Of a stretch of DNA of 36,903 nt, positions 7,245 to 15,417 are shown piece by piece (position 1 is the stretch's first letter; each line of letters starts with the position of its first letter). The DNA is taken from assembly GCA_020850535.1 (NCBI GenBank), contig JADZEM010000044.1, forward strand, positions 1 to 36,903. The letters are read 5' to 3'. This stretch comes from Chloroflexota bacterium. GTDB lineage: Bacteria; Chloroflexota; UBA6077; JACCZL01. Below the pieces are notes generated by a model that saw only the letters and a program-made list of their open reading frames with translations, was not told where the DNA came from and searched no databases. Both the position numbers and the translations under genes were made by a program.

Positions 7245-7442
7245 ATGGCGAAAGTCTCGATGATCGTCAAGACGAAGCGCCCGAGCGCCTTCAACACGGC
7301 GCATCCGGTGCGGGTTCGCAACCGCTGCGAGCGGTGCGGCCGGCCTCGGGCCTTCATGCGGAAGTTCGGTCTCTGCCGCATCTGCTTCCGCAAGCTCGCC
7401 CTCGAAGGCCAGATCCCTGGCGTCACGAAGTCCAGCTGGTAG
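7245..7442 (+). CDS. rpsN: 30S ribosomal protein S14, zinc-binding type
   Basis: S14 (65 aa) is the short, zinc-binding version found in many Gram-positive and related bacteria. Four cysteines (C28, C31, C44, C47) form two CxxC pairs in [20 protein letters not shown] and ICFRKLA. The C-terminal [11 protein letters not shown] is standard. The ATG follows a GGGGAGAG site. Its upstream region is the structured gap described separately, so it could be expressed differently from the genes before it. Confidence 0.97.
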
Positions 7443-12178: not shown

Positions 12179-12232
12179 TATACTTGCCTGTTGGTGCGCC
12201 CACCGTGGTTCATGATGCCTCGGAGGGCGCGC

Positions 12233-12451
12233 GTGCCTGGCGCTGAAGCCTCCGATGTCGACGGCACGGTGGTCGAGGCGCTCCCGAATGCTCGGTTCCG
12301 CATTGAACTGAGCGATGGGAGCCAGGTGGTTGCCCATGTGTCGGCGGGGCTGCGCCTGGGTGCGGGGCGGATCATTCCGGGAGACCGGGTCCGCGTTGCC
12401 CTCTCGCAGTATGACCGCTCACGCGGACGGATCACGCATCGCGCGCGGTGA
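12233..12451 (+). CDS. infA: Translation initiation factor IF-1
   Basis: IF-1 binds the ribosomal A site during initiation. The OB-fold sequence DGTVVEALPNARFRIELSDG, then VVAHVSAGLR, PGDRVRVALSQYD and RGRITHR matches the family. The GTG at 12233 gives exactly 72 residues, the standard length, and has GGAGGG 5 bases upstream. Earlier in-frame ATGs (12212, 12215) would add an arginine-rich leader absent from homologues. The gene follows adk directly, without map. Confidence 0.93.
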   Translation: MPGAEASDVDGTVVEALPNARFRIELSDGSQVVAHVSAGLRLGAGRIIPGDRVRVALSQYDRSRGRITHRAR

Positions 12452-12621
12452 CGAGGTTTCGCTGGGGCGACGCATCGGGCAGGGGCGAGGGCGGCGCGGC
12501 TGCCCCAGGTCGAGACTGGCAGGACGTAGACAGGCTTCAAAGACGGCAGCGCCGACAGGCAGGATGGCCCCCGAGGTCTTCAGGCAGCGCGGCAGCTCAG
12601 CACAGCAGGATGTGAAGGGTC

Positions 12622-12735
12622 ATGAAGGTACGAGCGTCTATCAAGCCCCGCTGCGAGCGGTGCAAGATCATCCGCCGGAAGGGCGTGGTCCTGATCATCT
12701 GCAACAACCCCAAGCACAAGATGAAGCAGGGCTAA
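12622..12735 (+). CDS. rpmJ: 50S ribosomal protein L36, zinc form
   Basis: This is a 37-aa protein beginning [15 protein letters not shown] and ending [12 protein letters not shown]11, C14, C27 and H32 form the zinc-binding CxxC...C...H set of the C+ type of L36. The position between infA and rpsM is the standard one, and the ATG has a GAAGGG binding site. The 170 bases between infA and this gene show no other feature I can support. Confidence 0.96.
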
Positions 12736-12828
12736 GGTGAGGCTGGGCGCGGCGGCCTGCGCGGCGCCGGCCCACACCGCGGTTTCAGCGTAGACACAAC
12801 GGGTCAGGAAAGGCACGGAGGACAGAGC

Positions 12829-13212
12829 ATGGCGCGTATCGCCGGTGTCGATATTCCTCGTGACCGCCGCGTGGTCGCTTCGCTTCCGGTGATCTACGGG
12901 ATCGGGCCGACGACCGCCGAGCGGATCCTCAACAAGGCGAACATCAGCCACGACAAGCGGGTGCGGGATCTCTCCGAAGAGGAAGTGAACCGCCTGCGCG
13001 AGATCATCGACCGCGAGTACGTGGTGGAGGGCGACCTCCGCCGCGAGGTCAACCTGAACATCAAGCGGCTGATGGAGATCGGCTGCTACCGTGGCCTCCG
13101 CCACCGGCGCAACCTGCCGGTGCGCGGCCAGCGCACGCGGACGAACGCGCGGATGCGGAAGGGGCCTCGCCGGACGGTGGCTGGCCGCCGCAAGGCATCG
13201 GCGAAGAAGTAG
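12829..13212 (+). CDS. rpsM: 30S ribosomal protein S13
   Basis: S13 (127 aa) contacts the P-site tRNA and pairs with S19. It has [20 protein letters not shown] at the N-terminus, [13 protein letters not shown], and the basic C-terminal [20 protein letters not shown] followed by [12 protein letters not shown]. The ATG has a GGAGGACAG site. A 144-base gap follows, containing only a small palindrome (TACGAC/GTCGTA, 13321-13334) just before the rpsK binding site. Confidence 0.98.
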
Positions 13213-13356
13213 GACCGAGACCGGGCAGCTGCCTGCGGCCGCCACGGGCCAGTTCTGGCTCGTGGCGCTCGTGCTGTCAGTGCGGCGCGACGAACGACGT
13301 CGGCGCCCGGCCCATCCCCGTACGACCCGTCGTAGGAATCATTCAGGAGGCCTCGA

Positions 13357-13755
13357 GTGGCGGAGCGAAGGCGTGGCCCGGCCCGGGCCCGGCGGCGTGA
13401 GCGCAAGAATGTGCCGGCCGGCCGCGCATACATCCAGTCCAGTTTCAACAATACGCTGGTGACGATCACCGACCCGCAGGGCAACGCGCTGTGCTGGTCC
13501 AGCTCCGGCGCGGCCGGCTTCAAGGGCTCGCGCAAGAGCACGCCGTACGCGGCCGGCCTGGCGGCCGATTCTGCCGCGCGCAAGGCGATGGAGCACGGCA
13601 TGCGCCAGGTGGACGTCTTCGTCCGTGGCCCCGGCTCGGGGCGCGAGGCGGCCATCCGCTCGTTGCAGGCGGCCGGTCTCTCGATCAGCTCGATCGTGGA
13701 TCACACCCCGATCCCGCACAACGGCTGCCGCCCGCCGAAGAAGCGGCGCGTCTAG
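13357..13755 (+). CDS. rpsK: 30S ribosomal protein S11
   Basis: S11 (132 aa) lines the mRNA exit channel on the platform. The sequence includes [40 protein letters not shown], and the end [25 protein letters not shown], all diagnostic. The GTG start is preceded by AGGAGG (13345-13350). Normally rpsD follows; here only a degenerate remnant does. Confidence 0.98.
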
Positions 13756-13756
13756 G

Positions 13757-13943
13757 CTTTCCCGGTTGCTGGTCGGGCTGGCCGGCGACCATCAAGATCA
13801 GGGCTGAATCTCGCAGCACGTCAGCCCAACACCTGTGTGTGTCCAGCGGCACGTGCGAGCGTGGCCCACACTGGAGCAACGGCTCCCTACAGACCTCAGT
13901 CCTGATCTACGAGCAGCTGGTCGTCGATCGCTATTCGCGCTAA
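13757..13943 (+). pseudogene. rpsD: Decayed C-terminal fragment of ribosomal protein S4
   Basis: No intact S4 gene is present in the slot between rpsK and rpoA, but the 187 bases after the rpsK stop encode S4-like pieces. In frame from 13769 reads LVGLAGD. After one extra base (13790), the frame starting at 13791 reads IKIRAESRSTSAQ. Together these resemble the S4 segment with pattern LV..GD.I.VR..SR. The same frame continues through GPHW at the distance where S4 has its conserved PW, and ends at 13911-13943 with EQLVVDRYSR and a stop, close to the usual S4 end EQLIVEFYSR. About 14 internal residues and all of the N-terminal two-thirds are missing. A working rpsD must lie elsewhere. The identification rests on short motifs read by eye. 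Confidence 0.6.
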
Positions 13944-14028
13944 CGGACCACTCGGCCTGGCAGCACGGCGCGCGGAACCGTCCCGCGCCCGCGCCGCGCC
14001 GCCGCCCGTCCGGGAGGAGGCCCACACC

Positions 14029-15051
14029 TTGTCAGAAACTATCGTCGCGAAAGTCGACGCCCTTCACACGTCCGAGGACTTTGGCCGCTTCCAGGTTGAG
14101 CCGCTGGAGCGTGGCTACGGCCTGACGCTCGGCAACGCGCTTCGCCGCGTCCTGCTCTCCTCGCTCGCTGGCGCTGCCGTCACCCAGGTGAAGGTGGACG
14201 GCATCTACCATGAGTTCGCGACCCTCCCCGGCGTCAAGGAGGACACGACGGAGCTGATCCTCAACCTGAAGCAGCTCCGCTTGAAGTCGTACACGGATCA
14301 GCCGACGCAGTTGCGCCTGATCGCCTCCGGCCCGGGCATCGTCACTGCCAGCGACCTGATCTATCCGAGCGAGATCGAGATCGTCAACCCCGAGCTGTAT
14401 CTCGCGAGCCTGGACAGCGCCGATGCTCGCCTGGAGATGGAGCTGACCGTCGAGAAGGGCAAGGGCTTCCGCTCCTCTGACGGCCGCGAGCCGCCGTCCC
14501 TCGGCGTGATCCCCGTCGACGCGATCTTCTCGCCGATCCGGCGGGTCAACTACCGCGTCGAGAACACCCGGGTGGGCGAGCGGACGGATCTCGACAGCCT
14601 GATCATCGAGATCCAGACGGACGGCACGATCTCCCCGATGGATGCGCTGGTGCAGGCGGCGACGCTGCTGATCGATCAGTTCAGCGTCTTCACGGACCTG
14701 CAGGCGCCCCAGCGGCGGGCTGACCGGGGCACGCTGGCGACGGGCTCGATCCCCAGCCACATCCTCGATATGCCCATCGAGCAGCTGGATCTCTCGCAGC
14801 GGACCTACAACTGCCTCAAGCGGTCCCAGATCACCAAGGTGGGGCAGGTCATGCAGATGAGCGAGGACGAGCTGCTCTCGCTCAGGAACTTCGGGCAGAA
14901 GTCGCTGGAAGAGCTGCGCGAGCGGCTGCGACAGCACGGCCTGCTCACCGAGGATGCCGAGAGTGAAGGCGCGACCGCCACGGTTGTCGGCGACCGCGAT
15001 GGAACTGATGACCTCGTGTTCGACATGTCGGACGACGAGGACGACGAGTAG
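14029..15051 (+). CDS. rpoA: RNA polymerase alpha subunit
   Basis: The alpha subunit (340 aa) nucleates RNA polymerase assembly and contacts promoters and activators. The N-terminal domain has GRFQVEPLERGYGLTLGNAL RRVLLSS at about residues 19-45 and the KGRG-like KGKGFRSSDG at about 143-152. The C-terminal domain has IEQLDLSQRTYNCLKRSQI and LRNFGQKSLEELRERL. The TTG start at 14029 has GGGAGGAGG upstream and gives the usual N-terminus. A short acidic tail (DDEDDE) ends the protein. Confidence 0.97.
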   Translation: MSETIVAKVDALHTSEDFGRFQVEPLERGYGLTLGNALRRVLLSSLAGAAVTQVKVDGIYHEFATLPGVKEDTTELILNLKQLRLKSYTDQPTQLRLIASGPGIVTASDLIYPSEIEIVNPELYLASLDSADARLEMELTVEKGKGFRSSDGREPPSLGVIPVDAIFSPIRRVNYRVENTRVGERTDLDSLIIEIQTDGTISPMDALVQAATLLIDQFSVFTDLQAPQRRADRGTLATGSIPSHILDMPIEQLDLSQRTYNCLKRSQITKVGQVMQMSEDELLSLRNFGQKSLEELRERLRQHGLLTEDAESEGATATVVGDRDGTDDLVFDMSDDEDDE

Positions 15052-15063
15052 AGCGGAGGAGTC

Positions 15064-15417
15064 GTGCGTCACAACATGGGCGGCCGGAAGCTGAACCGGC
15101 CGACGGATCATCGCCTCGCGCTGATCCGCAACCAGATCACCGATCTTCTTCGCTACGAGAAGGTCCGGACCACCGAGGCCAAGGCGCGCGAGCTGCGCCG
15201 CGAGGCCGAGAAGGTCATCACCCTCGCCAAGACCAACGACGTGCACCATCGGCGGCTGGCGCTGACGAAGGTGTACGACCCGCGCGTCGTCACCAAGCTG
15301 TTCGACGAGCTTGGCCCGCGCTTCGCAGACCGGCCCGGCGGCTACACCCGGCTCATCAAGCTGATGCCCCGCAAGGGTGACGGCGCGGCGATGGCCCAGG
15401 TGGAGCTCGTTCTCTAG
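15064..15417 (+). CDS. rplQ: 50S ribosomal protein L17
   Basis: L17 (117 aa) lies near the tunnel exit. It has RHNMGGRKLNRPTDHRLALI at the N-terminus, LLRYEKVRTTEAKARELRRE, and the C-terminal GGYTRLIKLMPRKGDGAAMA. The GTG start has a GCGGAGGAG site 3-4 bases upstream. It follows rpoA closely, as in most bacteria. Confidence 0.98.
   Translation: MRHNMGGRKLNRPTDHRLALIRNQITDLLRYEKVRTTEAKARELRREAEKVITLAKTNDVHHRRLALTKVYDPRVVTKLFDELGPRFADRPGGYTRLIKLMPRKGDGAAMAQVELVL

Follow-up and report, generated by a model that had tools for sequence, protein, structure and literature searches.

A probable scar of ribosomal protein S4 replacement between rpsK and rpoA in a Chloroflexota genome

Ribosomal protein S4 is a primary binder of 16S rRNA and is often taken as a vertically inherited marker; its gene is rpsD. 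A route by which one form of S4 replaces another has been described as path B, in which a C- (IV) S4 gene is transferred and the C+ gene of the alpha operon is then lost; Methylobacillus flagellatus and Finegoldia magna are the examples given, and zinc saving was suggested as the benefit of the C- form (Chen, Roberts and Luthey-Schulten 2009, PMC3087516). Deletion of rpsD from the operon cluster is also stated for Bacillaceae and Thermoactinomycetaceae in an excerpt of PMC8046335.

The stretch of DNA analysed here (the window, 36,903 nucleotides of a Chloroflexota bacterium) carries the rpsK-rpoA junction in which rpsD is expected. An earlier note, made from the letters of the window alone, had reported the S4 gene missing at this site, and this was borne out: rpsK ends at 13755, rpoA starts at 14029, and the 273 nt between them (13756-14028) hold no rpsD. 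The note had also proposed a comparison with related genomes, and an intact rpsD directly follows rpsK in all 28 other genomes of the same class; the nearest relatives compared belong to the same family, with no genus mate in the set. Wherever cysteines were counted (18 of 18 same-class genomes), the S4 of the slot has four or five of them and is of the C+ (zinc-binding) type. Both borders of the slot are ordinary open reading frames, with 76-87% identity between rpsK and its same-order or same-family counterparts and up to 80% between rpoA and that of the same family (tblastn). The slot is divided as follows.

13357-13755, plus strand: rpsK (ribosomal protein S11), open reading frame, upstream border of the slot.
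13756-13795, plus strand: probable ancestral rpsK-rpsD spacer with a hairpin (GGTTGCTGGTCG/GCCGGCGACC).
13796-13898, plus strand: segment of unexplained origin that holds the words IKIRAESR and GPHW, with S4 similarity at chance level.
13795-13908, no strand: imperfect 13-bp inverted repeat (AGATCAGGGCTGA / TCAGTCCTGATCT), 12 of 13 positions paired, bounding 88 nt.
13899-13943, plus strand: remnant of the 3' end of a C+ rpsD, VLIYEQLVVDRYSR-stop, identified by nhmmer and a C-terminal matrix, with strong similarity from 13909.
13944-14028, plus strand: former rpsD-rpoA spacer of 85 nt with the rpoA ribosome-binding site GGGAGGAGGC.
14029-15051, plus strand: rpoA, open reading frame with a TTG start, downstream border of the slot.

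The two outer parts of the gap resemble spacers. Hairpins also fold in the rpsK-rpsD spacers of four other genomes (G001, G002, G006 and G008), without sequence similarity to 13756-13795; the spacer of G006 (L039) contains a very long, near-perfect hairpin (GTGGTCAGTGGCCAGTGGCCAGTGGTCAGT...) with a fold of -74 kcal/mol. At the other end, the rpsD-rpoA spacer measures 24-146 nt in ten relatives and 92 and 146 nt in the two same-family genomes, both of which likewise carry CGGGAGGAGGC before rpoA. Since both the lengths and the ribosome-binding site fit these same-family genomes, the 85 nt between the remnant's stop codon and rpoA were taken as the former rpsD-rpoA spacer. Compared with its shuffles, the gap RNA has a slightly better fold (z=-1.6), and an Rfam search of 12200-15100 found no S4 leader or alpha-operon RNA, with one match far below the cut-off. 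Further copies of the gap in the same genome were limited to G+C-rich matches of 20-35 bases.

S4 similarity above background was found in the tail of the slot alone. With a DNA profile built from the rpsD genes of 17 relatives, nhmmer aligned 13901-13942 to profile positions 585-626 of 627 (E=8.1e-5), the best match to this profile in the whole window. On a matrix of 15 columns, made from the last 14 residues plus the stop of 30 slot S4s, 13899-13943 reached 28.9 bits, while the next best score in the window was 3.8 and the background maximum was 10.4 bits when about 378 kb of the same genome was scanned in all six frames (755,090 positions). The nearest tail is that of the same-family genome G002, with 33 of 42 bases identical, as against 27 of 42 at the best alignment with the end of the S4 gene found elsewhere in the same genome; two to three residues that hardly vary among relatives are changed (N to Y, E to D, F/Y to R). 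The S4 protein profile aligns the last 15 residues only, ending upstream at residue 194, so that 35-45 nt of about 630, i.e. the last 12-15 codons and the stop, are recognisable and about 93-95% of rpsD is gone or beyond recognition. Pairwise DNA alignment of single rpsD genes with the gap was at best equalled or exceeded by 1-3 of 200 shuffles, too weak a signal, and profile methods were needed. In Pfam and NCBIfam the 50-aa gap translation matched no family, the tail being too short for both. Judged by the DNA profile and the matrix score, 13899-13943 is a true rpsD 3' end.

The assembly (96.3% complete, 227 contigs) was searched with the Pfam profile and with a C+ protein as query, and the sole S4 gene found lies outside the alpha operon on another contig, at C204:4353-4973. 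It is complete and encodes 207 aa that match TIGR01017 over residues 3-206 with 201.9 bits (cut-off 177.2) and contain no cysteine, which makes the protein a C- form; it is nearest to the C- copy of G007, a member of the same order, at 63-65% identity. A purine-rich ribosome-binding site (GGAGGCAGGAGAGGAAAGAGG-ATG) lies upstream of the gene, and the stop codon of the gene is followed by a G+C-rich inverted repeat (hairpin) and a T-run, read directly from the sequence; a simple terminator scan omits this hairpin, whose loop exceeds the length the scan allows. No C+ S4 was found anywhere in the assembly by profile or protein searches, with a small chance that one lies on sequence missing from it. 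The earlier note had supposed that a second rpsD copy elsewhere took over. An S4 gene elsewhere is indeed the only one found, and it appears that the C204 gene now supplies S4 in place of the operon copy; it is of the Cys-free form, not an ordinary second copy. Its product would presumably work in the ribosome.

That C204 might be contamination was considered and is disfavoured by a repeat: positions 1-164 of the contig (L049, G000:C204) are an interspersed palindromic repeat of about 160 bp (GGGGACTGAAGTCCCCGCCTAC ...) that five other contigs of the assembly (C13, C148, C152, C176 and C211) also carry, with identities of 87-98%, and C204 was assigned to the genome because of it. Members of this repeat family often occur in pairs some 200 bp apart, and at contig ends; none was seen in relatives among the matches listed.

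Both forms of S4, C+ in the slot and C- elsewhere, occur together in G007 and in two further members of the class, G017 and G018. The C- form is thus scattered, with 3 of the 28 other class members having both. In the tree, the C204 S4 groups with the C- S4s of G007, Thermomicrobiales SJ531, G017 and G018, apart from the C+ S4s of the slot, with support of 99/96 for the group of C204 S4, G007 and SJ531. Although the C- S4s are grouped, transfer and old co-inheritance with many losses give no separable signal in this tree, and the fetched flanks of the C- genes share no neighbours save S4 itself and one weak match. Among 300 other genomes of the phylum, at least four more have rpsK adjoining rpoA and a C- S4 elsewhere, namely G168, G142, G043 and G052 (loci L126, L130, L132 and L131, respectively); this list is not exhaustive, as empty slots were followed up only in genomes with high-scoring C- genes. 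In G052 the S4 occurs as two pieces at contig ends. The gaps of these four genomes (100-149 nt) are unrelated spacers in which no S4 tail was found. The operon S4 gene has apparently been lost several separate times in Chloroflexota. A different arrangement was seen in another Chloroflexota genome, G175, where a Cys-free S4 lies within the alpha-operon slot (L128, 859-1476) and the genome yields one further S4 match. Because L36 (12622-12735) and S14 (7245-7442) of the window retain zinc-type cysteines, nothing indicates that ribosomal proteins have moved to zinc-free forms in general.

The slot is very probably a scar left when one S4 fully replaced another: the C+ rpsD of the operon was lost and a standalone C- S4 elsewhere took over. 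In the ancestor, an ordinary C+ rpsD of the zinc-binding type would have occupied the site between rpsK and rpoA; the lineage would then have gained the standalone zinc-free C- gene now on C204, and the operon copy would have become dispensable once that gene supplied S4. A deletion, perhaps accompanied by a small insertion, would have removed the operon copy except for its last 12-15 codons and stop, with the spacer and the rpoA ribosome-binding site left behind. This reading brings together the empty slot, the 3' remnant, the sole complete C- S4, the relatives with both genes and the relatives with C+ only. That the operon copy was destroyed in place, with its tail left behind, is supported by these data; that the gain of C- S4 came before the loss of C+, and that the remnant is now without function, is what we infer. 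The best account of these events is path B: the genomes with both forms would be its expected middle stage, the window being the end stage with a scar.

The earlier note had seen a frameshifted, partly deleted rpsD in mid-decay, with several recognisable pieces. Its last piece, EQLVVDRYSR-stop, is the genuine end of the gene described above, and the proposed pieces LVGLAGD, IKIRAESR and GPHW do stand in S4 order. However, when 13756-13898 was aligned to the S4 profile with frameshifts allowed, it scored 15.0, a value reached by 8 of 100 shuffles (mean 13.2) and 17 of 100 random genome fragments (mean 13.8), so these three pieces are at chance level and the frameshift by one extra base, which depended on them, falls with them. 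A contiguous gene that had decayed little would also extend the profile match upstream, and the match stops at residue 194. With so few of the gene's nucleotides recognisable, the estimate that the first two-thirds had been deleted and one third kept does not hold, and the slot represents a finished loss that left a small scar, not an intermediate stage of decay; the mid-decay version is very improbable. A further, unlikely reading is that 13795-13908 was a small mobile insertion which broke rpsD after the C- S4 had been gained; the slot would then record both this insertion and the deletion that finished the gene. The right arm of the inverted repeat ends where clear rpsD similarity starts (about 13909), and repeats as good as this one turned up in 2 shuffles and 7 genome fragments out of 200 each. 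No second copy of the repeat, or of 13796-13898, was found in the genome, and as a mark of insertion the repeat is suggestive only.

The tail itself could be a chance likeness in an ordinary spacer, as the slots of G168, G142, G052 and G043, with their unrelated spacers free of S4 similarity, might lead one to expect. This is barely conceivable in view of the 28.9 bits scored against a background maximum of 10.4: an equal match was not seen at random sites, and the tail lies on the right strand and in the right place, ends in a stop codon and leaves an rpoA-proximal spacer of the expected length. The fragmentation of the draft into 227 contigs would favour an assembly error, with an intact rpsD still in the cell. 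Yet the junction, with about 100 nt of new sequence between rpsK and the rpsD 3' end, is more than a direct fusion of the two; the complete alternative S4 and the failure to find a C+ S4 in the assembly also speak against such an error, which we regard as highly improbable. It is very improbable, too, that the tail is functional, for example by being translated into a short peptide or by acting as an RNA element between rpsK and rpoA. Its sequence is less decayed than that around it, an in-frame GTG lies at about 13838, and the fold of the gap is slightly better than that of shuffles. Against this, the fold is unremarkable and without an Rfam match, no start has a ribosome-binding site upstream, the tail has changed at two to three nearly invariant positions, and it is absent from the other empty slots.

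The replacement of the operon gene by the C- S4 of C204 fits a route already described, and a readable scar of such a replacement is uncommon. No published report of an rpsD remnant was found in the open-licence literature, nor any mention of remnants or pseudogenes by a word search of the main text of PMC3087516. The scar is direct sequence proof that a C+ gene once stood in the operon and gives the inferred 'gain then loss' route a physical trace. At least five Chloroflexota genomes are added to the known cases. The exchange is a caution against the blind use of S4 in concatenated marker trees, and a genome with S4 outside the alpha operon offers a natural test of the balance of that operon; it may also affect zinc economy and, as the earlier note suggested, S4 autoregulation of the operon. 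As in path B, a C+ lineage has a sole S4 that is Cys-free and outside the alpha operon, with relatives that have both forms; unlike in path B, the 3' tail of the deleted gene is still readable in the slot (PMC3087516). The absence of rpsD between rpsK and rpoA is likewise shared with Bacillaceae and Thermoactinomycetaceae, for which the excerpt of PMC8046335 reports no remnant, and lineage and event are separate. The empty slots of G168, G142, G052 and G043 have the same layout, with rpsK followed by rpoA and a C- S4 elsewhere; unlike them, the slot of the window retains a remnant of the gene it lost.
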